From a virus: DNA of 22,672 bases. The notes beneath the pieces were generated by a model. That model saw only the letters and a list, made by a program, of their open reading frames with translations. It made no database searches and was not told the DNA's origin. Positions 4,261-22,672 of this stretch are shown here, in pieces (within the stretch, counting starts at the first letter, position 1; every line of letters starts with the position of its first letter). Both the position numbers and the translations under genes were made by a program. Location of the stretch: positions 1-22,672 of the IMG/VR virus record IMGVR_UViG_3300030451_001684. One strand, written 5' to 3'.

Positions 4261-5022
4261 TTATACACCACCACCACCTCCTCCTGAGCCACCATGATTT
4301 GCTTGTAAATCAAGTAGTCTTCCTGTGGTATCTACAGAAGTTGTTGATGTTGGAAAAAATAGATTATCACTTCCAACTGTGAATCTAACCCTAAAACTAA
4401 AAGAAACTGCATTTGTTGCTCTTACCCTCGCTATTGGATTGCTTGAATTTGCTACTGCTTGCCAAGCAAAATTAACAGCAGAACCATTAGTCATACTGAT
4501 AAAGCTATTAAAAGTACCTGTAATGCTTGAACCTGCTCCGTTTTGTTCAATCGTTGCATTAGAAGTACATTTGATTTGGAAATCTACGCTATTACCTTCG
4601 CAATTAGTGTAGTTAATAAATGTTGTTTGCTGTGAAAAGCCATCAACTGAATTGCCAGACGTACTGACCAATTGCACTCTGTTATTAGCAGTTTGCAGAG
4701 TTGCTACTACAGAACATGAGCTAGTCGGTGTAGAGGTTGCAGAGGTTGTACAATCTTCGTCACCCCATTGAGTAAAAGGCGTTGTTGCACTATAACTTCC
4801 TGCTGATACTGCTATATCAGAAGCACCTCTAAATTGTCCGATTGATATTTGTGTGCCAGAACCTGTATTTAGACCACCACCATTAAACTCTGGATGGGTA
4901 AAAGAATGATTACGCAAATCTGTATCGTTTAAAGAAACTGTAGTACCTGAAGAGCCACCAACAACAGTATGAATATCATCCATTGTTACATTAGTTACAC
5001 CAACAAAATTAGGCACACTCAT
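4261..5022 (-). CDS. accessory tail fibre / adhesin-like protein, 253 aa
   Basis: The N-terminal 70 residues have the small fibre signature seen in many marine phage tail proteins: a short start, TMDDIHTVVGGSSGTTVSLNDTD, then the repeated-type motif SGTQISIGQFRGAS. The rest is Ser/Thr/Asn-rich beta sequence with four cysteines (DEDC..., SSCSV, NYTNCEG, FQIKCTS), which might pair if the protein is displayed outside the cell. The C-terminus is glycine-rich (GGSGGGGGGV). It overlaps the giant tip gene by 14 nt in a different frame, so the two are probably translated together and act together at the tail tip. Receptor binding is inferred, not shown. Confidence 0.6.
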   Translation of the reverse strand: MSVPNFVGVTNVTMDDIHTVVGGSSGTTVSLNDTDLRNHSFTHPEFNGGGLNTGSGTQISIGQFRGASDIAVSAGSYSATTPFTQWGDEDCTTSATSTPTSSCSVVATLQTANNRVQLVSTSGNSVDGFSQQTTFINYTNCEGNSVDFQIKCTSNATIEQNGAGSSITGTFNSFISMTNGSAVNFAWQAVANSSNPIARVRATNAVSFSFRVRFTVGSDNLFFPTSTTSVDTTGRLLDLQANHGGSGGGGGGV

Positions 5023-8000
5023 CTAGCTTTGCCTTGAGTTCATCTATTTGTTCTTGTTGATCTTTGATAGCTTCTATTAGATAACCGACTAGGTTGCCAT
5101 AAGCTACAGACTTTGTACCTTGCTCATCATCTGCTGTTAAGACTAGCTCTGGTGCAATCTTTTCAATTTCTTGAGCAATGACACCACTTCCCTCTTCACC
5201 ATCTCTTATGTAGCTTACACCTCGCATTTGTAGAGCTTTTTTGCCATCTAGTGTTTGTATGTTGTCTTTAAGTCTTTCATCTGAAAATGCTGTTACATTA
5301 CCAGTAAAAGTTGCATCATTTACATTGCTTATAGTAATGGCGTTAGCACTTCCTGTTTCGTTTCTAATTGTAAAGGTTTCATTATCTGTTCCAACGCTAA
5401 AACTTCTTGCAACACCCTGCGAATCATTCAGAAATAGTTTTGGATATGTGCCAGCTGCAGTTATGTTTCCACTATTGATAGTTCCTATGTTTGTAAGGTT
5501 TCTTGAATTATCTATAACTGTGGTTGTACCAATTCTTAGACCACCATTTTTAATATCTACATTACCACCACCATTAATCTGGAATATATCTGAATAGTTA
5601 GTACCATCTGTACTGGTAAAAATCATTTCAGTATCTGTTTGAGCAGTACCACCATCAAATATCATATTGACTTCGCGACCACCATTAGACTTATTCCAAC
5701 CTATATGTAAACCAACATTTCCATCTGTATTGACAGTACCAACATTTGACTTCACATTAAAATAACCACCTGTGCCTGTGCCATTAGTTACTGCTAAAGC
5801 AGTTTGTTGACCATTAGTAGATGTTGAAAATAATGACCTTGAACCAGTTACAGACAAACCACCTGTAGCATCAATTCTAGCTGTTTCTGTATTGCCATTA
5901 GCAAATCTTAAATAGCCATCTGTTTGAAATAAAGTACCAGAACCTTCGCTATTAATATTATATTTTGTACTGCCTATATTCCCTATATTGGTAAGGTTTC
6001 TGCTTTGGTCTATAAAAACAGTTGTTCCCATTTCTATTGAACCAGTAGCGATTCTTACATTAGTTTTTGGCTCTAATATAATATCTGATTGAGCATCTGT
6101 AATACCATTAGCATCTAATCCTAAATAGCCACCATAAGTTCCACCTGCATTGGTGCTTATAATCATATCGGAATCTGTTAAAACATTAGCTGTATAACCA
6201 ATACCCATAGCATCGCCAGAATTATTTTTAAATATAACTTTTGCAGAAGCACCACCACCACCTCCATTACCTGTATCACTAAGTGTTATTTTAGGTGTAA
6301 CTGCATCTGCTATTGTTATATCACCACTAGAGATAGTTCCTGCTAAGTGCAGGTCTTTGAATCTTCTACTGCTTTGACCTAAGTCAATCGTTGCATCAAC
6401 AGAAGCTCCGTTTTGCAGAGGTAAAACTTTTGCACCAGTTCCATGCATAAGCAGTCCAGAGCCAGAAGATGAGCCACCCTGTATAAATAAACTATCACCA
6501 CCTTCAGAGCCAATAGTTCCAATCGTTGTTCCATCTTTAGCAAATGTTGATATTGCTCCATCTGTTGATTTGCGATTTAGATATAAAGGATCACCATTTG
6601 TTCTAATTGCAACTATGCCACCTGTATCTCTTAACTCAATTCCATCCGTAGTTAAGTCTGAAGATGTTTTTGAAACTAACAGATTTCCTGAACTATCAAT
6701 ACGCATCCTTTCTGTATTACCTGTGCCAAATGTCATAGTTCCATTAGATAAATCTTTTATATGGAAACCACTTGTATCCATAAACAATTCAGCAGCATCA
6801 CCACCACTTCTTTGAATTCTTAAAGTTGCTGTCCCACTTTTTTCAATTTCTATCCCAGAGCCATTAGTAAATGCAGGTGAGCCAGTTCCAACAATAAGGT
6901 TGCCAGATGAATTTAAGTGCATCTGTTGACCATTAGCTATATAGAATTGAATATCAGCAGCATTTAATCGTAAAGACCTCCAAGCTACACCCTGATCTAA
7001 AGCAGTAATCCTTCCAACATTACTTGCATAATCTAAAAATACACCTGTTCCTGCACCTGAAGCTATATTTGCTTCGCCATCAACTTTTATACCTCCACTA
7101 GAAATGTGTAATTTTTCATCAGGACTTGTAGTTCCAATACCAACACGTTGAGATGAATCTACTTTTAAAGCATCAGAGCCATTAGTTTTTAGAATGACAC
7201 TTCCTGCATCTTGTGCTTCTATAAACAAACCACCTGTTCCTCTATGAACTAATTGTGAGTTTGTATTTGCTCCACTATTGAATCTTATTAGACGTAGACC
7301 ATAATCGTTATAAGTAGTATCGCCTACAAGATCAATATAAGCATTATGATTTGCAAGAGGACTTGTACCTATTTCTATTCTAGTATCGTTTGTGCCATTA
7401 GAAGGTATATCTATTGCACCTGCTGTTAAGGTGTTATTTACAGTAAGAGTAGATGCAGGTGAAGATAAGGGTGTAAAAAATTCTAATTCAGTAGTTCCAG
7501 ACAAGTCTGCATCAACAGGAAATCTAAGTGCTTTACCACCTTTAGATGAAGGCACACTTGCAGGTATTGTAATATTGCTGTTAAAAGTAACTTTATATTG
7601 ATCTGAATTACTTTGACCACGTATTTTAACAACAGTTTGATTATTAGCACGCAAATCAAAATCAGTAGCACTCGTAGTTCCGATTGTGTTTGTATCTATT
7701 GCACCACTATTAATAGTGCCTGCAAAGGTGGCGTTTTGTGAAGTGTCAAGTATTAGTCCTTCGCTACCAACATTACCACCACCAGATGATAATTTAAGTG
7801 AGCCACCAGATGTTGATATTAAAGATTTTGTTGTTCCATTTTCTCTAAAGCGTAAAGTAGGATTGCTGTTGGTGTCATTAATAACAACCTCTGCATCTGT
7901 TGTTTGAACATTAAGACCATTTTGATCAGGGCTGTTGTGTCCTATTGATACTGTTCCTGCAAAGTAATTTACTACATCCGAAGCAAGATAAATTCCAAAA

Positions 8001-11000
8001 GCATTAGTTGGACGTGTGCCTTCATAACTACCATGTAGAAGATAACCATTTGTAATAGTTCCATTGTCTCTATCTATAATTGACCTTATTGCATAGGCAT
8101 TGTTTAGAGTTGTATCTGAATCATGTTCAACCTCTGCAAGAACACCATAAGCATTTGATCTGTTTGCTGTATTACTATTTAAAACATGCCCTTTAAAAAA
8201 TCCACCATAGATAGCAGTAACAGTTCCTGCTCCTTGCACTTGTCCTGTACCTGCAACTCCAATCGCTAAAGATAAATTAGCACTTGTATTTGCTCTTGCT
8301 GTAGAGTTTATGCCTCTTAGAGCAGAAATCTGACCGCTTGTATGTTTTCCAATACTTAATATATTTGCACCATAAACTAAATCAGAATCTCCAGAAGCAT
8401 CTTGTGCTATATGTAACCCATAAAGTCGATGTTCATTAGAGGTATCACCACCAGTTGCACTTGAATCTTGATCTATGTACAAAGCTCTATGTGTTCTATC
8501 AGCATCTAGCGTATCGCTTCCAGAGGCATTATGATCTAGCACCATGCCAGTAAAACCAGCATTTGCTGTGCTATCTGTACAGTTAAAATCGTAACCCTCA
8601 GTAACAGTTGAAGTACCAGAAAATCCTGTTATATTGGTTAGCTTTCTTGCATCTGTAATGACATTTGTATTATTAATTTTATAAGCACCTGTTACAAGAT
8701 CAAAACCACCTGTACTATTTATTTGGGCAACTACTGCATTGTTATATCTAAATGCCAAACCACCTGTGCCATCATAGAAATCTATGCCATTGGTTTGTTG
8801 AGAATTGCTAATTTGATAATCGCCAGTATTAATACATCTAACATCAAGAGCATCGCTATCTCCAACCCATCTTTGAATTATGCTACTAACTCCTCCTGTA
8901 TTCGTGGCTATGATTGCCGCAGTTGCATCGGAGCTTGTAGTTGCATTGATTTGACCACTTGTAATACTTCCTGTTACTGTTGCTCCTGAACTTGTTGTTT
9001 CTAGTTTTTTATTACCATCATAGAAGAGTTCTACATTTCCATCTTGGTTTGCTTTAATCATGCCCTCAGCATCATCAGCACCATTTACACGAAATGCTTG
9101 TGTGTTAAGAATAAGATTACCTGTGCCTGTATCTTTTATTCTACTATGGTTGCCATCGTGAAAAATCTGTAAATCATTACTAGCTCCAAACTGTAATTTT
9201 TGATTATCAGGCAAAGTAATACCATGAGAAAAATCAAACTCATCATTGGTTGCATCCCAAAGAATAGTCGCATCTGTTGAAGCATCTACTGCATCTTGAA
9301 TAGTTATACCTGCTCCATTTGCATTTGCAGAAGAATCACCTGTTGAAAAGTTTAGGGTTATGTTTTTGTCTTTGACATCTAAGTTAATGGTGTCAATGGT
9401 TGTGGTTGTGCCTTGAACTGTAAGATCACCACCAACTATGAGGTTGTTAGAAAAAGTATGATTGCCTGTAATAGTTGAATCTAAGTTAAGCGTAACACTT
9501 CCAGTTGTGCCACCACCATTGAGGTTAGTACCTGCTACAACTGCTGTTATATCACCTGCTCCTGTGCCAACAGCAGAGCCATTAAACTGCAAAGCTCCAT
9601 TAAGTAAATAAAGACTGTTAGTTTGAGCAGAGCCACTTGGTGCTGAACTTAAATTTGATAAAGTTATTGAACCTTCTTTATTAACTATAGTTTCTTTTTG
9701 ACTGTTGCCTGCTGCTGAAGAAAAGAATCTAAAATCAGTACCATTTGCTAAAAATGATTCAAAGCCAACACCAGAACCGCCTGTTGATAATGCTAAGTAT
9801 TGTAATCCTGTATCTGTTATTTTTAATTGATTTTGTGCTTGGAAACCTATTGACATAATTCTATTAGAGCCTGTGCCTGTTACTCCAAAAGCATCATCTA
9901 ATGGCTCTCCATTAATAGTAATAACACTAGCATCCAATGTTCCTGTAACAGTTGCACCAGTAACATTTAAAGATGAAGCTGTTATCGCACCTGATACTGT
10001 TGCACCTGTTGCAGTCATAACACCAGAAGAACTAACTGTAAAAGCTCCTGATCCTATATTAATTGATGAGGAAGAACCATTGATGGTAATTCCAGAATTG
10101 TCAATTGTTACATCACCACCGCTTACAGTAACATTAGCTGCGTCTAAAGTACCTGTAGTTATATCATCGGCACTTATAACACCAAAGACACCAGAAGCGG
10201 AAGTAAGTGTTCCTGTTTGTATCTCAGTAGCTGTAATAGCATTTGCTTGAATATCGCCTAGCTTTACAGGCTGTTGAGTTACATTAAAGGTAATAGAGGT
10301 TGCACTTGATTCAGCACCAGTACTACTAATTGATGTTATAGATGCAACATAACCATTAGCTACAGCAATAAAATCTAAGTCTATGAAAGCATCACTAACA
10401 ATTCTGTTATGTATTTCTTGTCCTGAAGAGTTTTTAATTATTACTCTAAATTCTTTTGCAGGATAATTAGTTGCAGCCGTCCAAGTTAAAAAAGCTCTTC
10501 TTGTTGAAGTAGCATCGGTAAATGTTAGGTTTGTTGGTGGTTCTGCTTCTGTTCCTGTTGGCAAGTCTGGATCACCACCTACATTTTCTTCTGGTGGTGT
10601 AGCTGACCATGTGTAAAAATCAAAATACTCTATTGCTTGTATTCCTACTAAGCCATTATCTAATAAGTTAATTGTTTCAATTCTATAAGCAGCATTTGAT
10701 AAATTGTAAGGCGTGTAAGTTATTGTAACCACATCTCCTGCTGTTAGATTTAATAATCTAGGAGTGCCAACAAAACTAATAGTTTTTTGTCTTCTACTTC
10801 TCTCAAGTATGCCTTTACCCATGTTGAAGGCGTTATAGGGATTAGTTATGTATTGAAATTCTGCTGTAGTTTCAAGCTCTTCGCCACCATCGTCATTTTT
10901 ATAAGTTAAAGTGCTATTGTTATGAAATACAGTTTTAGTATCTGATTCATATTTTTTCTGTGCGTTAAAAAACTGTACTACAACTTTATTAAGTTTTTCT

Positions 11001-12613
11001 GCTTTATCTTCATAACGTATTTTTATACCCTGATCTATTATATGATCATCGGTAATACTAAAGGATGATGATGTTGCATCTTCTACTAGAACGCTGTATT
11101 TACCATCTATGTAATTTAAGAATCCACGCATATTAGATAGTAAATCTCTTGCGTTATCTAATACAGTTTCATTGGTATCTAAAACACCATCACATTGCAA
11201 TCTTCTAGTTTGTGTTAATACAGAGCCAGATTCGTCTGCATACATAAATTTACCAACAGCACTTCCACCACCATTACCTGTATCAGAACTGTTAGCTAAT
11301 ACAGTTGCTAGGTTTAAATCAGTTGCTTCAATCGTAAAACTGTTAGCATCTACAACTGTTGCAATAGTATAGCCTTTGTTTAGAACTGTTGTTGTTATGT
11401 TGCCACCAAGACTTGTTGCTCCTGCAAAAAGAACTCTATCGTTGGCGGATGCACCATGTGAAGTACAAGATACAGTAATAGTTGCATCTCCATTAGTAGC
11501 AGAAAACGTAACACTTTTGCTTACTTTTGCAGGCGGTGTTCCGTCTGTATAAATTCTAAAATTTGTGCTTTCGGTATGTGGTGTAAATCTTTGAGCATCA
11601 ATAACATTGTTTTGATTTATTATTACAGAACCACCACTATCCTTAACGCTTAATAATTCACCACCCTTTATTTTTTTCCATGTTGCTTCGTTTACTGTAA
11701 TAAAATTATCTTCAACGTCTGCTGAAAAAGTAGCAGAAGCATAAGAGCCACTATAATCAGGAACATCAACAATAGTATCTGCGGTGTTAGCTGCTGTTTG
11801 AAAAGACTGTAAATCTATAGAAGATGTTGCTAAACCCTTACCATAATCTTGATGCATATAGTCAAGCATAGTTAAAGCTGCATTATTAGACCATTCATAA
11901 GTAGTCGGATCATCTATTCTGTGCGAACCTGTACCACCTGTTATTGAGCCATCAAGTCTAGGATCGTAAAGTTTTCTTCCCTTAACAACTACTGTTAATT
12001 CTGGAACAGAAGTAAACATACCCTTTTGATCGTACTGAAAACTACATGCCAAATATGCTATACCTCTTAACCTATGATTACTTCCGAATCTTGCAGGCTG
12101 TGAAGCAACAAGCATAGGATCAGCAGCTTGATCATCTGCTCCATGATGTGCATTTAAAACCATTCTATAAATTTTTGTTGGATCAGTTCCAGACCTTCCA
12201 TCCCCTCTAAAACTTCCTGAAGATGTACCAATCTGGCTAGCAGTATTTAATGAACCTGCACCACTAGATATTTTATCTGATCCTGTATAATAGCCATCTC
12301 TAAAAACTTTTGTATCTGATAAAGGCACACCATTAATCTCTATCGTATCTAGCTCTATTGAATCGACCTCACCTAAACATAAACCATATATTACAAATAA
12401 TTCTTTTGAGTTGCCTGAATCTGTGTCCATGTAAAGAAGTGTTGAGCCAACTCTTCTTCTTCCATAAATAATTGGAATTTTGCCACCTTGAGCAGTTTTA
12501 GTAGCTAGTATATCTTGACCTTGATCCTTTAATTTTTTTGCTGTTCTAAAATTTTTAATACCTGTTATTACAGTTATAGCAAAAAAAATATCGCTTAAAA
12601 TTTTTAAAACCAT
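5009..12613 (-). CDS. giant tail tip (J-like) / fibre protein with S74 self-cleaving chaperone
   Basis: The 2534-aa protein takes up a third of the window. Residues 1 to about 690 are tail-hub sequence (GGKIPIIYGRRRVGSTLLY, then a J-type body) with an inserted beta domain at about 361-450. A fibronectin-III domain sits at about 688-780 (PPTNLTFTDA...FLTWTAATN), followed by a J-central-like DIQANAITATEIQTGTL segment. From about 800 to 2440 there are beta-strand repeats such as DSSGNLLVS, NSSGNLIVG, AGTINSG and SRNLTNIG, including a widespread marine-phage fibre module at about 1058-1218 (TTTTIDTINLDVKDKNITLN). The C-terminus is a peptidase S74 / endosialidase-type chaperone: SDERLK, with S2444 and K2449 spaced as in the known Ser-Lys dyad, then GVIAQEIEKIAPELV. 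Cleavage before S2444 would release 91 residues after trimer folding. The ATG directly follows the previous TAA, with GGTGGGG upstream. Confidence 0.85.
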   Translation of the reverse strand: MVLKILSDIFFAITVITGIKNFRTAKKLKDQGQDILATKTAQGGKIPIIYGRRRVGSTLLYMDTDSGNSKELFVIYGLCLGEVDSIELDTIEINGVPLSDTKVFRDGYYTGSDKISSGAGSLNTASQIGTSSGSFRGDGRSGTDPTKIYRMVLNAHHGADDQAADPMLVASQPARFGSNHRLRGIAYLACSFQYDQKGMFTSVPELTVVVKGRKLYDPRLDGSITGGTGSHRIDDPTTYEWSNNAALTMLDYMHQDYGKGLATSSIDLQSFQTAANTADTIVDVPDYSGSYASATFSADVEDNFITVNEATWKKIKGGELLSVKDSGGSVIINQNNVIDAQRFTPHTESTNFRIYTDGTPPAKVSKSVTFSATNGDATITVSCTSHGASANDRVLFAGATSLGGNITTTVLNKGYTIATVVDANSFTIEATDLNLATVLANSSDTGNGGGSAVGKFMYADESGSVLTQTRRLQCDGVLDTNETVLDNARDLLSNMRGFLNYIDGKYSVLVEDATSSSFSITDDHIIDQGIKIRYEDKAEKLNKVVVQFFNAQKKYESDTKTVFHNNSTLTYKNDDGGEELETTAEFQYITNPYNAFNMGKGILERSRRQKTISFVGTPRLLNLTAGDVVTITYTPYNLSNAAYRIETINLLDNGLVGIQAIEYFDFYTWSATPPEENVGGDPDLPTGTEAEPPTNLTFTDATSTRRAFLTWTAATNYPAKEFRVIIKNSSGQEIHNRIVSDAFIDLDFIAVANGYVASITSISSTGAESSATSITFNVTQQPVKLGDIQANAITATEIQTGTLTSASGVFGVISADDITTGTLDAANVTVSGGDVTIDNSGITINGSSSSINIGSGAFTVSSSGVMTATGATVSGAITASSLNVTGATVTGTLDASVITINGEPLDDAFGVTGTGSNRIMSIGFQAQNQLKITDTGLQYLALSTGGSGVGFESFLANGTDFRFFSSAAGNSQKETIVNKEGSITLSNLSSAPSGSAQTNSLYLLNGALQFNGSAVGTGAGDITAVVAGTNLNGGGTTGSVTLNLDSTITGNHTFSNNLIVGGDLTVQGTTTTIDTINLDVKDKNITLNFSTGDSSANANGAGITIQDAVDASTDATILWDATNDEFDFSHGITLPDNQKLQFGASNDLQIFHDGNHSRIKDTGTGNLILNTQAFRVNGADDAEGMIKANQDGNVELFYDGNKKLETTSSGATVTGSITSGQINATTSSDATAAIIATNTGGVSSIIQRWVGDSDALDVRCINTGDYQISNSQQTNGIDFYDGTGGLAFRYNNAVVAQINSTGGFDLVTGAYKINNTNVITDARKLTNITGFSGTSTVTEGYDFNCTDSTANAGFTGMVLDHNASGSDTLDADRTHRALYIDQDSSATGGDTSNEHRLYGLHIAQDASGDSDLVYGANILSIGKHTSGQISALRGINSTARANTSANLSLAIGVAGTGQVQGAGTVTAIYGGFFKGHVLNSNTANRSNAYGVLAEVEHDSDTTLNNAYAIRSIIDRDNGTITNGYLLHGSYEGTRPTNAFGIYLASDVVNYFAGTVSIGHNSPDQNGLNVQTTDAEVVINDTNSNPTLRFRENGTTKSLISTSGGSLKLSSGGGNVGSEGLILDTSQNATFAGTINSGAIDTNTIGTTSATDFDLRANNQTVVKIRGQSNSDQYKVTFNSNITIPASVPSSKGGKALRFPVDADLSGTTELEFFTPLSSPASTLTVNNTLTAGAIDIPSNGTNDTRIEIGTSPLANHNAYIDLVGDTTYNDYGLRLIRFNSGANTNSQLVHRGTGGLFIEAQDAGSVILKTNGSDALKVDSSQRVGIGTTSPDEKLHISSGGIKVDGEANIASGAGTGVFLDYASNVGRITALDQGVAWRSLRLNAADIQFYIANGQQMHLNSSGNLIVGTGSPAFTNGSGIEIEKSGTATLRIQRSGGDAAELFMDTSGFHIKDLSNGTMTFGTGNTERMRIDSSGNLLVSKTSSDLTTDGIELRDTGGIVAIRTNGDPLYLNRKSTDGAISTFAKDGTTIGTIGSEGGDSLFIQGGSSSGSGLLMHGTGAKVLPLQNGASVDATIDLGQSSRRFKDLHLAGTISSGDITIADAVTPKITLSDTGNGGGGGASAKVIFKNNSGDAMGIGYTANVLTDSDMIISTNAGGTYGGYLGLDANGITDAQSDIILEPKTNVRIATGSIEMGTTVFIDQSRNLTNIGNIGSTKYNINSEGSGTLFQTDGYLRFANGNTETARIDATGGLSVTGSRSLFSTSTNGQQTALAVTNGTGTGGYFNVKSNVGTVNTDGNVGLHIGWNKSNGGREVNMIFDGGTAQTDTEMIFTSTDGTNYSDIFQINGGGNVDIKNGGLRIGTTTVIDNSRNLTNIGTINSGNITAAGTYPKLFLNDSQGVARSFSVGTDNETFTIRNETGSANAITISNVNDATFTGNVTAFSDERLKDNIQTLDGKKALQMRGVSYIRDGEEGSGVIAQEIEKIAPELVLTADDEQGTKSVAYGNLVGYLIEAIKDQQEQIDELKAKLDECA

Positions 12614-17616: not shown

Positions 17617-20301
17617 TTATGAAGCAGCACAGAAAGACACAGCGTGTCTAACAGCTACATCAACTGATTGTAAAGCAACAATTCTAACTGTACCTGAACT
17701 TGAAGATGTATAAGGATCAACAACAATGTCTAATCCTCCGAACATTCCAATAAGTAAGTCATTGAAGTTACCAAACACGTAATTGTTTGCAGTTAACTGT
17801 GGTGATACAACTGCTCTGTAGCCATTGATCTCATCGTTAACAGCAACAAATTGTGCTGTGTTACTTGCTTTTTCAGTAGTTTTTAATGTGCCATAGTTAG
17901 TTGGATGCACAATATAAGCTAAATCGCCTAGTAATGCGTTATCAACTCTAACAGCAGTTTCCATAGAAACCATTTCAGCAAAAGTTGGAGCAGCAGCACT
18001 TGAAAGTGATACGCTGTTAATTCCACTCGTATTGGTTATCCCAGTTGGATTCCCAGAAGAGCCAGAACCTTCTAATGCAGCATCATCAATAGCAATAGCC
18101 ATTGAAGCAGCTAGATCGTTTCTAACTAGATTTTCAACATCGATTGATGATTGAATCATAAGTTGTCTAGTAATGTCTGTGAACGCACCTAATGATTTAG
18201 GAGACATGCTTACATTACCAACTGTTAATTCAGATTCACCTGCAGCACCACCCTCTGAGCTAATAAAAGCAGCAGAAGCAGCAGCAGTTTTTCTAGGAAT
18301 CTTAACATCGCCTGATAGACCATTTAGCATAGTTGCTAATGGCATAACAGCAGAGTTATTTCTTAGAACATCAATGAAATCACCTGCTCTGTAGTCTTGA
18401 CCAATTAGGTCTCCATCTGAGCCTGCTGATAAATCTCTTTGATTCCAATTTCTTAAAACTTCATCTGGAAGCATAATACCTTGAGCAGTTTGCCCATATG
18501 ATCTTTGTGCAGCTTCAGAAGCTTCAAATTCAAATTTAGCGGCTTCTTGAGCTCTTCTATCAGTTGGATTTGCCATCGCATTGATAGCTCTCAATAAGCT
18601 AAATCTTTTTGTTTCTTTTTCTGTAAGACCAATATCTTTTGGAGTTTCTAAAGGAGTATCATTAGAAATGTTGTCTAATAAAATACCTCTAAACTCTTCA
18701 ACAGATTTGCCTTCAGAAATAGCTTGATGTGCTAGGTCTCTTTTGTTGTGCTTAACAGCTAAATCAAGAATCTCTTTTGAGTTTCTTGCAAATTCTTTTT
18801 TAGCAGCTTCAGCACTCTCTGATCTAACTTCATCAAGATTAATTTCTTGTTTTTCGTTTGACATAATTTGTACCTTTGCTTTTTCAGCAATTTCTTTTGA
18901 ACGTCCAACTCCAACAAGTCTACTTTGATCAGCAGGAACGCTTACACTTGAAACTTCAAGTGGCGTCCAACTAGCTCTGTAGTAATCCTCGTCTTTGTCT
19001 TTCATTCTTGTTAATTTATCCACTCGATAGCCTACGCTTATATTCATGCGTATACCATCAAGCACATCTCTAAAAACTTCTTCAGCTAGAGCAGATCGAC
19101 CAAATCTGACTACTGCTATTGTCCTGTTAGCAGTCTGATCAAGTTTAAATTCTTCAATAACACCAATTTGTTTAGTCATATCGTGATCTAACAAAAGTGG
19201 TGCTCTTCCTGATTCCATAAACTCCATGTTTATATCTTCAGCAGAGTGTCCTAAAACTTCCATTCCAAAACTTCTCTCAACTGGCTCTTCACTAGAAACA
19301 CCAATTCTTACACGTCTATTTTCTTCATCGACAAATTCTGATCTTGATAAATCAATAGTTCTGTAATTGACCTTAAGATCAACTACTTTTCTTTCTTTAT
19401 CTTCATCTTCTTCATCGTGATATGGGCGTGCTTCTTCAGTCATTTCCATTTCTTCGCCTTCTTCTTCCTCTTCGTGATGCTTTGCAAACTCGACTACAAC
19501 TTTATCATCGATTTCGCTTACATTGAGGATATGCCTATCCTGTTTATCTTCCATAGATTTCTCCTCTTTGCTTGATAAAGGATGTGATTCAGGAAGCAAA
19601 TCAGTATCATGCTTCCCACCTTGAAACCTCCCATTGCGTAAAGCAAATAAGAAGCTATTAACTCTTGCCATAGCCCAAGTCTGCGGATTAGACACATTCG
19701 GTCTAACGCTTGCAGGTGAGGTGTTGTATGCACCTATCCCTCTATCGTAGACTTTTTTTAGCGTTCCAAGAGTTGTTCTTTTTGATGCAGCATTGTTAAC
19801 TTCTTTGTTATGCTCATCAACTTTGTTTTGTAATGCCTTTTCTGTTTTTGCTGATATTTGCCTATCTGCTTGAGCCTGACTAGCAGAACCATACTCTTTG
19901 CCTTCTCTATACTTAATAGCTTCTAAAACAACATCTTTCATTTTTTGTTCACCTAATGTTCCAATAACACCCCACTTCATTTGTGCGATTACTCCTGCAA
20001 TGTTTGATGGTCGACCTGCTTTGTCTCCTGATTTAAACTGTGATCCATCTTCAAAATGTCTTGCAGCCCAAGCTTCTCTTTCTTTGATCCACTTAATGAC
20101 ACCATCGGTTTCTTCACCTGCTCTTGCTTTCGTCCACAGATTAAAAGCTTCATTACCTCTAATGTTACCTCCTGCTTTGTAAATATCATTATCATTTTCT
20201 TTTACACCTGCAATAAAATCATAATCAAATTGTGGATAGTTAGAGTTTCTTAGTGAGACTTTTTTATCATCATCTTTAGTTGGGAAATCAGTCGCCATCA
20301 T
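17617..20301 (-). CDS. fused head gene: N-terminal domain + U35 prohead protease + HK97-fold major capsid protein
   Basis: Starting at ATG 20301 (AAGGTGG upstream; 894 aa) rather than the SD-less ATG 20343, one frame carries three units. Residues 1-249 form a domain with SLRNSNYPQFDYDFIAGVK, GGNIRGNEAFNLW and AAKHF-like elements, ending RVNSFLFALRNGRFQ...DTDLLP, known beside phage head genes but of unknown role. Residues 250-479 hold a prohead protease of the U35/HK97 type: H373 in LLLDHDMTKQIG, S422 in MNISVGYRV and E449 in PLEVSSVSVPAD. Residues 480-894 form a capsid protein with a helical delta region (about 485-600) then an HK97 fold (LPDEVLRNW, GDVKIPRKT, SPKSLGAFTDITRQL, IDDAALEGSG). 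The capsid part alone is 415 aa, a normal full length. Internal ATGs with SDs at both domain borders suggest separate products as well. Scaffold function would come from the delta region. The gene overlaps the portal by 14 nt. Confidence 0.85.
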   Translation of the reverse strand: MMATDFPTKDDDKKVSLRNSNYPQFDYDFIAGVKENDNDIYKAGGNIRGNEAFNLWTKARAGEETDGVIKWIKEREAWAARHFEDGSQFKSGDKAGRPSNIAGVIAQMKWGVIGTLGEQKMKDVVLEAIKYREGKEYGSASQAQADRQISAKTEKALQNKVDEHNKEVNNAASKRTTLGTLKKVYDRGIGAYNTSPASVRPNVSNPQTWAMARVNSFLFALRNGRFQGGKHDTDLLPESHPLSSKEEKSMEDKQDRHILNVSEIDDKVVVEFAKHHEEEEEGEEMEMTEEARPYHDEEDEDKERKVVDLKVNYRTIDLSRSEFVDEENRRVRIGVSSEEPVERSFGMEVLGHSAEDINMEFMESGRAPLLLDHDMTKQIGVIEEFKLDQTANRTIAVVRFGRSALAEEVFRDVLDGIRMNISVGYRVDKLTRMKDKDEDYYRASWTPLEVSSVSVPADQSRLVGVGRSKEIAEKAKVQIMSNEKQEINLDEVRSESAEAAKKEFARNSKEILDLAVKHNKRDLAHQAISEGKSVEEFRGILLDNISNDTPLETPKDIGLTEKETKRFSLLRAINAMANPTDRRAQEAAKFEFEASEAAQRSYGQTAQGIMLPDEVLRNWNQRDLSAGSDGDLIGQDYRAGDFIDVLRNNSAVMPLATMLNGLSGDVKIPRKTAAASAAFISSEGGAAGESELTVGNVSMSPKSLGAFTDITRQLMIQSSIDVENLVRNDLAASMAIAIDDAALEGSGSSGNPTGITNTSGINSVSLSSAAAPTFAEMVSMETAVRVDNALLGDLAYIVHPTNYGTLKTTEKASNTAQFVAVNDEINGYRAVVSPQLTANNYVFGNFNDLLIGMFGGLDIVVDPYTSSSSGTVRIVALQSVDVAVRHAVSFCAAS
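18864..18877 (-). promoter_or_regulatory. internal SD/start at protease-capsid border
   Basis: AAAGG (18877-18873) lies 8 nt before an in-frame ATG at 18864, which begins MSNEKQEINLDEVRSESAEA. This looks like a natural capsid N-terminus and would give a 415-aa product. Confidence 0.6.
19552..19566 (-). promoter_or_regulatory. internal SD/start at N-domain-protease border
   Basis: GAGGAG (19566-19561) lies 6 nt before an in-frame ATG at 19554 (MEDKQDRHILNVSEIDDKVV). This SD is stronger than that of the annotated start of the whole gene. Translation from here would make a protease-capsid product of 645 aa. Confidence 0.75.
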
Positions 20302-21778
20302 CGCCACCTTGTATGTTAGCTTCAACAGGCATCTTCTGACCAAAAGGTTGATATGCTATCTCAATACCATACTGTTCTGCTAGTGCTATTTCTTTTTGAT
20401 GTTGTTCAAACAACTCCTCGACATCTCTTCCAAAAGCAGAAGATATATCGCTATAGGTTGTTGTTCCGTTTTGTAATCCAATGACGTTTGCTTGCATCTC
20501 TTTCAATGGATCAATGTGTGAGAATGATCTAGGTATATAAGTTATACCTCTAGCAAACTTATCAAACTTACCCATAGGAAGATTTATATATCCTGTTGAC
20601 ATTGCCATCTCTAACCAAGATTTAAAAACAGGATCAATAAAATGTTCAATAATAAACTGTTGCATTATTTGATATGCACTTCTATCTTCTAACGCACCTT
20701 GTCGAATTGAAGAGTAATTTACAGAACTAAGATCGTTTGACAACGAGTGATATGAAATATTTAGACCACTTGCAATACTTCTTAATACGCTAGTTGTAAA
20801 AGAATCAAAAGCAGAATTTGGATGCGATGGATCAAAAGCTTTGAAATCCATACCTGCGGGCAACTGTTCAAATACACCTGCTTGAGCAGTCATTGTGGGA
20901 TTAAAGGTATCTTCAAAATCACCATCTCCGACATAGCCATCTCCGTCTGGAGAAATAAAGAAGCCTTGCTTAGATGCTCCAACCCTTGCAGCTACTATCT
21001 CAGCTTCAAGATATGCGTTTAGTTGTTTTACATTTGCCATAACAGGTGCAATAAAAGATACACCTCTTGTTTGTTCTGCTCTATTTGGTAAGTATGCGTG
21101 TATTATTTCTTCAGCAGGAACTCTTATATATTCTTGAGCAGGTTTTGGATATGTATTGTTGTAAGGATGTTTTTTGAATAAGTGATAAGCAACAGGCTTA
21201 TCGTTTCTATCAACTTCAACACCCATCTTAATACTTCTTCCATTGGGTAAAGTATTATTGTTTTTTTGTTCGTCTAAATGATCTGCTTCTAAGAACTGTA
21301 TCTGGAAACCAAAATCTGAATCTGTTGTTTTAATTTTTCTAACTAATACTTCACCATCTCTGAGTAAAGTTTCAATAAATATTTTTTGACAATCTAAAAA
21401 TGATAATCTTCCATTTGCAGTACAGTTACCCAGTTGTGTCCATTCCTTCCATGATCTCTCAATCAGCAGGTTAGCTCCTAAGTCTAATGATCTATCATCA
21501 TTATATGACTTGGAGCTTACTCTTACGCCTTGCTTGCCAATGACATTCGATACCATCAGGTTAAGGTATCTTGAGATATATGCATCGTTGCGAGCTAACT
21601 CTCGACCTCTATCTCTTAGGATTCTAAGGTTGTCTTTGACTTCTGCATCGGCACTTGTTGAGGTTGTTAAAAAGTCTGCAAACAATCTTCCTGTGTTTGC
21701 ACCTTGATAACTTCTTTTAAAAGCTCTTTTCTTAGCTTTCTTTTTGTTATTGCCTAATAAATTATCGTACCAAGCCAT
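20288..21778 (-). CDS. portal protein (lambda gpB family)
   Basis: The 496-aa protein shows the lambda-type portal layout: basic N-terminus (GNNKKKAKKRAFKRSYQGA), then LRDRGRELARNDAYISRYLNLMVSNVIGKQGVRV, a WTQLGNCTANGRLSFLDCQKIFI region, and a core with RDGEVLVRK, QIQFLEADHLD, GVEVDRNDKPVAYHLF and VPAEEIIHAYLPNRAEQTRGVSF. The ISYHSLSNDLSSVNYSSIR segment at about 345-365 is a strong family hallmark. Twelve copies would form the ring through which DNA enters and leaves the head and on which the capsid assembles. The ATG overlaps the gpW-like stop (TAATG), and the 3' end overlaps the fused head gene. No separate protease gene lies between portal and capsid. Confidence 0.92.
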   Translation of the reverse strand: MAWYDNLLGNNKKKAKKRAFKRSYQGANTGRLFADFLTTSTSADAEVKDNLRILRDRGRELARNDAYISRYLNLMVSNVIGKQGVRVSSKSYNDDRSLDLGANLLIERSWKEWTQLGNCTANGRLSFLDCQKIFIETLLRDGEVLVRKIKTTDSDFGFQIQFLEADHLDEQKNNNTLPNGRSIKMGVEVDRNDKPVAYHLFKKHPYNNTYPKPAQEYIRVPAEEIIHAYLPNRAEQTRGVSFIAPVMANVKQLNAYLEAEIVAARVGASKQGFFISPDGDGYVGDGDFEDTFNPTMTAQAGVFEQLPAGMDFKAFDPSHPNSAFDSFTTSVLRSIASGLNISYHSLSNDLSSVNYSSIRQGALEDRSAYQIMQQFIIEHFIDPVFKSWLEMAMSTGYINLPMGKFDKFARGITYIPRSFSHIDPLKEMQANVIGLQNGTTTYSDISSAFGRDVEELFEQHQKEIALAEQYGIEIAYQPFGQKMPVEANIQGGDDGD

Positions 21779-22404
21779 TATGTATAGTCCGTTGGATTAA
21801 TAGTTGATGTTGAACCAAACTTTACTTTAATAGTATTGCCTGATCCTTGCTTGTTCCTGATTCTAGCTAGTTTAATTTCTTTTAAATATTCAGCTTTATA
21901 TCTATCTCTTAACTCCATCAAATCAGGTATTGGAGTTCTTGAAAGTGATCTTCCTGAAATAGACATAGATGCTTGATCTATTGTTGCTCTTCCTTCTAAA
22001 ACATTTTCAATAGCATCAAGAACTTTTTTTGCATGACTTCTAAGATCAGCGTTCGTATTAGCGAGGTTGGTTGTAATTTCAGTTCTTCCTGAATCAACCA
22101 TGATTCTCTCAGAATCAGCACTCCTCGTTATGTAGGCTTCCCAAATATAATCACCTGTTTCATAACTTGCTGTAGTTGATGAACCAACCTCTATGTAATA
22201 GGTGCTATCTGCTTCAGTAGCAGTAATTGTAAACTTCTTATTACCACCGCCACCGCTATCTTCATGGAACTCATACGTTAAAGCAAAAGTACCAACAGGG
22301 TAATCATTTGCTAAATCGTCTCTTCTCCATGTAAATCTGTCGCCTGCAACAAGTTTTGCAGGTTCAGCAGTTGGATAATTTGTTCTATCGAATCTGTTAG
22401 TCAA
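21778..22404 (-). CDS. head completion/connector protein: beta domain fused to gpW-like helix domain
   Basis: The frame has no ATG; the in-frame stop TGA at 22416-22414 limits it. I favour TTG 22404 (208 aa, begins MTNRFDRTNYPTAEPAKL), 6 nt after GAGGA. A second TTG at 22407 is only 3 nt from it. Residues 1 to about 115 are a beta sandwich (AGDRFTWRRDDLANDYP, YYIEVGSSTTASYETGDYIWEAYIT). From about 120 the chain is helical, with GRSLSRTPIPDLMELRDRYKAEY, matching the gpW pattern R-S-x-x-R-x-x-x-x-x-L-x-x-L-R-x-x-Y. Lambda W (68 aa) lies in the same place before the portal and closes the head after packaging. The added beta domain may be an immunoglobulin-like decoration. It is the first gene after the late promoter. 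Confidence 0.7.
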   Translation of the reverse strand: MTNRFDRTNYPTAEPAKLVAGDRFTWRRDDLANDYPVGTFALTYEFHEDSGGGGNKKFTITATEADSTYYIEVGSSTTASYETGDYIWEAYITRSADSERIMVDSGRTEITTNLANTNADLRSHAKKVLDAIENVLEGRATIDQASMSISGRSLSRTPIPDLMELRDRYKAEYLKEIKLARIRNKQGSGNTIKVKFGSTSTINPTDYT

Positions 22405-22418
22405 CAATAATCCTCATA

Positions 22419-22448
22419 AATGTTATAGATACACCTACTTATAACATT
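22419..22448. promoter_or_regulatory. 9-bp inverted repeat, candidate operator
   Basis: AATGTTATA (22419-22427) and TATAACATT (22440-22448) are perfect arms 12 bases apart. With one skipped base the symmetry extends to CATAA on each outer side. The repeat overlaps the -10 region of the promoter just upstream and the likely start of transcription, a usual place for a repressor dimer site. Confidence 0.55.
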
Positions 22449-22471
22449 ATGAACCATTTTGTTTTTGTCAA
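22444..22471 (-). promoter_or_regulatory. candidate promoter of the morphogenesis operon
   Basis: TTGACA (22471-22466) is a perfect -35. With a 16-nt spacer the -10 is TAATGT (22449-22444), which is only fair. The alternative CATAAT (22451-22446) is closer to consensus but the spacer would be 14. A weak -10 behind a perfect -35 would suit an activated or repressed late promoter. Confidence 0.6.
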
Positions 22472-22482
22472 TATATAAATAA

Positions 22483-22508
22483 AAAAAGGCTCAGTTAAGA
22501 GCCTTTTT
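22483..22508 (-). terminator. rho-independent terminator
   Basis: A perfect 10-bp stem, AAAAAGGCTC (22483-22492) and GAGCCTTTTT (22499-22508), has a 6-base loop. On the minus strand it is followed by an uninterrupted run of seven T, and it lies 26 nt after the stop of the partial gene. It would insulate that gene from the late operon and could also work on the plus strand. Confidence 0.9.
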
Positions 22509-22534: not shown

Positions 22535-22672
22535 TTAAATATAATAAGATTCATTGTATTCTTTTTCATAATTTATTTTTTCTAATCTGTTTTGCTCTTT
22601 GATCATTGGATTTATTAAATCTCTTCTAAGATATCTATATACTGTTTTAAAACAAATTCCATGTCCTTTTTT
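22535..22672 (-). CDS. unidentified small basic protein, C-terminal 45 aa only
   Basis: An open frame enters from the right edge and ends at TAA 22535. The visible part reads KKGHGICFKTVYRYLRRDLI, then NPMIKEQNRLEKINYEKEYN and ESYYI. The CFKTVYRYLRRDL stretch could be the recognition helix of a helix-turn-helix, as in small DNA-binding phage regulators or terminase small subunits, but too little is present to decide. A terminator follows at once, so it belongs to a separate transcript from the head and tail genes. Confidence 0.55.
   Translation of the reverse strand, partial: KKGHGICFKTVYRYLRRDLINPMIKEQNRLEKINYEKEYNESYYI

Follow-up and report, generated by a model that had tools for sequence, protein, structure and literature searches.

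In lambda-type late control, the operon that carries the virion genes is turned on by Q, a protein encoded at the end of the early region, which acts at pR′. In T4, RNA that was initiated upstream is described as masking the ribosome site of genes e, soc, 49 and I-TevI; with gene e and I-TevI, the transcripts made from late promoters lack the 5′ strand of the hairpin (PMC3014915; PMC2988022). Inserts that lie between genes contiguous in relatives, and whose ORF is flanked by a promoter and a terminator, are treated as morons (PMC3029335). Among marine phages, subgroup V of the CRP-822-type has a G+C content of 35.4% and mostly predicted SAR86 hosts (PMC12629253). The word ‘promoter’ is absent from the main text of that family paper, and we found no description of the promoter element reported here in open-licence PMC papers.

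This study analysed a virus record of 22,672 bases (hereafter the window), which has a G+C content of 35.2% and carries the genes of interest on its minus strand. Its source is a low-G+C marine siphovirus-like phage that is kin to the CRP-822-type roseophages. Two features were compared, portal and gene order: the portal is up to 49% identical to that of CRP-406, and the same terS-terL-connector-portal-capsid order is found. CRP-406, CRP-831 and CRP-811 differ in that at most 4 nucleotides separate terL from the connector gene, which leaves no room for a promoter. In the window, the head-tail connector gene (positions 21778 to 22404; PHROG 5774, head-tail joining, E value 6e-40) is followed by the portal and capsid genes. 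Because terS and terL are located upstream of the promoter, the latter heads only the connector-portal-capsid-tail part of the gene order. By eye, a 908-residue ORF (17617 to 20343, minus strand) resembles a fusion of prohead protease and major capsid protein, and the end of a 2534-residue tail protein (5009 to 12613, minus strand) resembles an endosialidase-type intramolecular chaperone.

Read along the minus strand, the control region comprises the end of an ORF, a terminator, TTGACA, a 16-nucleotide spacer, TAATGT, TATAAG, TAGGTGTATCTA, GAGG and TTG. To judge from its sequence, this is a conserved late promoter, probably HTH-dependent, that sits inside a predicted fold-back able to mask the ribosome binding site. 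The whole account, in which a late-used promoter of the virion operon is activated by a small protein (HTH54) from within such a fold-back, is one that we hold with moderate confidence; late timing, activation by HTH54 and translational masking are the parts that we infer.

Searches with the connector (best 80 of 384 kept) and with the portal (best 80 of 484 kept) supplied the relatives, giving 128 entries with usable gene starts, the window included; some contigs were fetched twice, and a terL match was present upstream in 115 entries. The promoter core is widely conserved among them. After 7 partial and 9 short loci had been left out, TTGACA-N16-TANNNT was found ahead of the connector gene in 46 of 55 distinct 75-nucleotide upstream sequences, down to approximately 54% connector identity. 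The entire conserved unit consists of TTGACA-N16-TANNNT (mostly TAGTGT), 5 to 6 nucleotides, TAGRT-NN-ATCTA, GAGG and TTG. Among the 46 core promoters, the −10 hexamer is TAGTGT in 37 and TAATGT in six, and three other hexamers occur once each. The first-pass annotation of the window had named a TTGACA −35 element and a poor −10 element, and both assignments hold: TTGACA is located at positions 22471 to 22466, 11 nucleotides past the terminator stem, and TAATGT (22449 to 22444) follows at 16-nucleotide spacing with three of six matches to the consensus. In four relatives without TTGACA (L108, L110, L124 and L135), TATAAT is separated by an equal distance from a degenerate form of the palindrome described below, which supports the −10 assignment and places the palindrome at about +1. 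Transcription in the window is predicted to start near position 22437, where TAGGTGTATCTA begins. When ten phage records were scanned with a matrix of the −10 block, the best site was at this promoter in eight, and a coding site outscored the promoter in G004 and G007.

All 46 promoter-type sequences have a TTG start codon for the connector gene, compared with five of the nine others, and GAGG lies 5 to 8 nucleotides ahead of it in 45 of the 46 (7 nucleotides in 38); in the window, this Shine-Dalgarno sequence occupies positions 22412 to 22415. A TTG start had been proposed for the first gene and a TTG is indeed present, but the conserved start is the second such codon (22404 to 22402) rather than the one at 22407. 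The proposal of a tightly held late promoter stands in part, since conservation, position and the deviant −10 support the idea of a held promoter in front of the virion operon; its lateness is inferred from the virion genes that it heads. The window contains just one perfect match to TTGACA-N16-TATAAT with that spacing (2346 to 2319, minus strand), an early promoter that precedes the first early gene and is followed by the leader ATGTTTAACAAAAAAGGAGT.

With a consensus −35 element placed 16 nucleotides from a deviant −10, the promoter should be used poorly by host sigma70 polymerase alone. A candidate activator is HTH54, an HTH protein of 52 to 65 amino acids that is encoded at the end of the early region, just ahead of a minor-tail-like gene (Z) at the genome end. 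HTH54 matches the Pfam family HTH_50 with an E value of 1e-5, which is below the curated cut-off. Its structure model (pLDDT 82) has three helices, and the most probable of the PDB matches listed by Foldseek was the DNA-binding domain of TyrR (0.87), no match having an E value below 0.28.

HTH54 co-occurs with the promoter core. We considered all loci in which the connector start could be scored together with the slot that precedes the Z gene, and the resulting 71 entries (61 with both features, 9 with neither and 1 with HTH54 but not the exact core) were collapsed by hand to 40, 6 and 1 contigs. The exact core is thus present in 40 of 41 scorable contigs with HTH54 and in 0 of 6 without it (L110, L312, L327, L328, G072 and L365), although the 40 are not an unbiased sample because many HTH54 contigs were fetched through HTH54 itself, whereas the six were not. 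No contig has the core without HTH54, and the single exception in the other direction, L212, carries TTGACT-N16-TAGCTT, one base off in the −35 element. A smaller hand-picked set gave 29 of 29 with HTH54 versus 0 of 7 without, two CRP records being among the seven. HTH54 was not found in the complete records of CRP-406, CRP-831 and CRP-811, which also lack the core. It is present in eight of nine long promoter-bearing contigs (G001 to G009); for the ninth, G006, no HTH54 is shown, and that contig stops before the region concerned. A search of 45 HTH54 contigs for the core plus palindrome gave matches without mismatch in 24, and three contigs had only 3-mismatch matches away from the promoter. 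The 20 HTH54 contigs without a real match, G020 aside, revealed no connector gene (a search without any match); tblastn agreed on its absence for five contigs and found a connector in G020 and G055.

A further-reaching reading, which we consider somewhat less likely than not, is that HTH54 is a minimal dedicated activator of late transcription, a single three-helix domain that would let host sigma70 polymerase use the TA[AG]TGT −10 and that may have been lost at least twice along with the promoter type. On a terL tree of 36 rows, HTH54 undergoes three gains or losses, two of which are forced by well-supported branches, with the caveat that G072, G008 and G020 are long branches. The window ends before both the HTH54 gene and the gene for a putative ribbon-helix-helix protein (RHH), which lie outside this fragment; by analogy with its relatives, the window's own phage would carry them.

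An alternative explanation is that this is an ordinary constitutive sigma70 promoter whose weak −10 only sets its strength, and that the palindrome, the dyad discussed below and the link to HTH54 are by-products of shared descent. TTGACA with a TAnnnT −10 at 16 nucleotides can work alone, and the combined evidence for masking given below is modest. Moreover, the circular map places HTH54, terS, terL and the promoter side by side; they may therefore be passed on as a block, and such co-inheritance could mimic a functional link. However, the terL tree shows at least two joint losses of HTH54 and the core (L110 and L327 types), L327 lacks only HTH54 between the two flanking genes, and the lineages without HTH54 have TATAAT or TAATAT in place of the deviant hexamer. 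We consider a purely constitutive promoter to be unlikely.

Many independent contigs (L002 to L135) start approximately 2400 nucleotides before the connector gene, just ahead of terS, and several stop just past the Z gene; these shared starts and ends suggest fixed (cos-type) genome ends. In a clade without HTH54 and TTGACA (L312 5457 and L315 5457), the slot before the Z gene holds a 159-residue ORF that appears HNH-like by eye, and the small early genes upstream run in the opposite direction.

Between the −10 element and the Shine-Dalgarno sequence lies a palindrome, TAGNNNNATCT[AT] or a variant of it, which follows the −10 after 6 nucleotides in 41 of the 46 promoters and after 5 in 4, and is unrecognised in 1. 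The window carries TAGGTGTATCTA (22426 to 22437), a degenerate form of the conserved TAGATNNATCTA, which would form the tip of the fold-back. Its near-constant spacing and its beginning at the predicted +1 are consistent with a different function, in which TAGATNNATCTA is a DNA operator for a phage repressor (for example the early-region RHH protein) or for a host protein that keeps the promoter blocked until late, RNA pairing being incidental. The best site in a palindrome matrix scan is at this promoter in 10 of 10 phage records, and all nine of the contigs G001 to G009 have an RHH gene. G020 has neither the palindrome nor a detectable RHH, and L327 keeps AGATTAATCT even though it lacks HTH54 and TTGACA. 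Other data argue in the opposite direction. G072 and G075 have RHH genes, yet their connector genes lack such a palindrome, and CRP phages without the palindrome have RHH-like ORFs as judged by eye, cases that weaken RHH as the sole palindrome binder. The inner palindrome is conserved overall, yet it is asymmetric in the window clade, where TAGGTGTATCTA breaks the symmetry of the DNA at a place where a G-U pair still forms in RNA. Furthermore, the matrix scan gave no second site that would suggest autoregulation. We regard an operator as an unlikely explanation for the palindrome.

Further copies of the palindrome were considered as a regulon, and this idea was set aside because the strongest secondary sites inspected (two in G008 and one in G004) sit inside ORFs. 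The RHH model has a pLDDT of 67, with weak Arc/CopG matches only, and a conserved A-x-W in its strand was dismissed as a sign of specificity because it also occurs in RHH copies without the palindrome. The RHH-like ORFs of the CRP phages, each 53 residues long, lie directly before the PDDEXK gene (L136 24363 to 24524, L137 22336 to 22497 and L161 8791 to 8952), a slot that the RHH gene occupies in relatives of the window. G020 carries the core and HTH54 but no palindrome, indicating that HTH54 tracks the core and that the palindrome is separable from it.

The promoter is preceded in the window by a perfect 10-bp terminator with a T run, whose stem (22508 to 22483, minus strand) was confirmed as first annotated. 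One terminator-like structure was found in the window versus 1.3 expected by chance, but this terminator is credible because similar hairpins occupy the same place in other relatives with an insert. The distance from the terL stop to the connector start is 56 to 91 nucleotides in 94 of 115 loci and 419 to 2635 nucleotides in the remaining 21. We inspected the ends of 17 of these inserts, of which 11 keep the TTGACA promoter (L010, L011, L023, L068, L074, L111, L117, L128, L129, L132 and L133). A terminator lies shortly ahead of TTGACA in all 11 promoter-type inserts (AAGGCTCTT type in 10, another type in L117), and nine of the 11 (not L074 and L117) open with an AT-rich start region and a leader like those of the early promoter, so that such start regions recur in the cassettes of nine relatives between terL and the late promoter. 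The presence of a terminator at the insert end in relatives implies that the one in the window closes a moron-like cassette. The terminator and the promoter are therefore two units rather than one, and the former belongs to the cassette.

The likeness to morons lies in the extra ORFs between terL and the promoter, which most relatives lack, and in the early-promoter-like start and the terminator found in L010 and eight other relatives; the window exposes only the 3′ (terminator) side of its cassette. The visible ORF, the C-terminal part of the last cargo gene (22535 to 22672, minus strand, stop codon 22537 to 22535), has 45 residues identical to the C-terminus of a 195-residue ORF in L010 (2695 to 3282). 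That ORF carries HEVSHH...GHG and, by eye, would be a zinc peptidase (HExxH...GHG); family searches of the cassette ORFs, this one included, returned no firm match. The edge ORF had been taken for a partial HTH protein that might bind the dyad, a candidacy that fails because it is the tail of an HExxH-bearing cargo protein and not an HTH. The regulator acting here is likely another phage HTH protein that is encoded outside the window.

In the first-pass annotation, terminator, promoter and dyad formed one compact control knot, a single switch whose regulator binds AATGTTATA-N12-TATAACATT. The named features are physically present, including the perfect 9-bp dyad (22448 to 22440 and 22427 to 22419), which overlaps the −10 and extends with a one-base slip, and TGTT-N18-AACA recurs with unchanged spacing in the window clade as well as the L109, L117 and L127 types, as judged by inspection. 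The unity of the knot is lost, however, because the terminator arrives with the inserted cassette. As DNA, the dyad is near chance level: five perfect inverted repeats (arms of 9 or more, loops of 3 to 20 nucleotides) were counted in the window, the terminator included, compared with a mean of 1.9 (range 0 to 7) in 12 dinucleotide shuffles. A search for further copies had been suggested; the arms with 10 to 14 nucleotides between them occur once within the 22,672-nucleotide window. Conservation in relatives is divided, since the left arm coincides with the −10 region and the right arm is kept in only 17 of 46 distinct promoters; A/G changes in the left arm among close relatives are unmatched on the right. 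The dyad was accordingly rejected as the main operator. Other elements are better conserved, and an RNA fold-back explains the dyad no less well than a binding site would. A single switch operated through the dyad is thus highly improbable.

Our preferred account instead assigns this pairing to RNA. A 59-nucleotide read-through RNA of the window has a folding energy of −12.0 kcal/mol (z −2.69; equalled by 3 of 200 shuffles). In it, UUCAUAAUGUUAUA pairs with UAUAACAUUUAUGAG in a predicted hairpin (22413 to 22453) that includes both dyad arms and reaches into the Shine-Dalgarno sequence, whereas the RNA from +1 has −3.1 (z +1.08). The predicted 5′ strand consists of spacer plus −10, so that transcripts from the putative start site would lack the mask. 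Across 49 sequences, GAGG is unpaired with a median probability of 0.25 in read-through RNA and 0.47 in RNA that begins at the promoter; shuffling the upstream strand gives 0.35. Other clades pair with other letters, as in the L042/L107 type, where AACCUU pairs with GAGGUU.

For statistics, 64 distinct elements were grouped in 11 clusters. Masking is significant at p 0.05 in 2 of the 11 and at 0.1 in 4 (combined p 0.026), and folding energy reaches p 0.05 in 3 of the 11 (combined p 6e-5); among 82 other gene starts from four of these phages, 7% pass 0.05 for masking and 12% for energy. Mann-Whitney comparisons of the clusters with these controls gave 0.024 for masking, 0.003 for energy rank, 0.002 for energy gain and 0.052 for gain in accessibility. 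In an alignment of 22 representatives, a three-part helix has 80.3% paired cells; column shuffles give 78.1% (8 of 500 as high) and sliding gives 33 to 52%, and the covariation is 0.124 versus 0.098 (5 of 500 as high). Double changes occur in three pairs of this helix, no more than in shuffles (143 of 500 have as many), and RNAalifold predicted no common structure for the 22 elements. Clusters L025, L345 and L386 showed no masking, and L071 folds, yet its GAGG stays as free as before. We take masking to be a genuine trend in approximately six clusters (L107, L157, L363, L387, L390 and L391) according to these folding models, with no proven conserved structure.

Taken together, HTH54, whose gene stands last in the early region, would most likely switch the promoter on, as its co-occurrence with the core suggests. 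In transcripts that read through from upstream, folding predicts that the promoter strand pairs with the Shine-Dalgarno sequence and would silence the TTG-started connector gene, whereas transcripts from approximately 22437 would lack that strand and should be translatable. In this phage, a cassette has been inserted just upstream, and its own terminator would further shield the virion operon from upstream transcription. If HTH54 activation and the fold-back are both true, one short element would hold the virion operon off at the levels of transcription and translation in a widespread group of marine phages.

Little has been described of how genes are regulated in this widespread marine phage group, most of which is uncultured. 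A concrete promoter, together with a candidate regulator and an RNA switch that can be tested, would provide a first handle on its early-to-late timing. The element is ordinary in kind; it is a specific, testable variant of known arrangements. As with Q of lambda, the proposed HTH54 would be made at the end of the early region and would switch on the virion operon, but HTH54 is modelled as a three-helix domain. With T4 gene e the locus shares a promoter that encodes the 5′ strand of a predicted hairpin masking the ribosome site, such that RNA started there would lack that strand. It differs in having a sigma70-type TTGACA-N16-TAATGT rather than the T4 late promoter TATAAATA read by a phage late sigma factor, in standing at the head of a virion operon rather than before single genes, and in its TTG start; masking here is predicted, and not in all clades. 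Because promoter type and gene differ, we claim likeness to the gene e arrangement and not membership, and the locus would offer a clean case of a T4-style translational guard on a virion operon.
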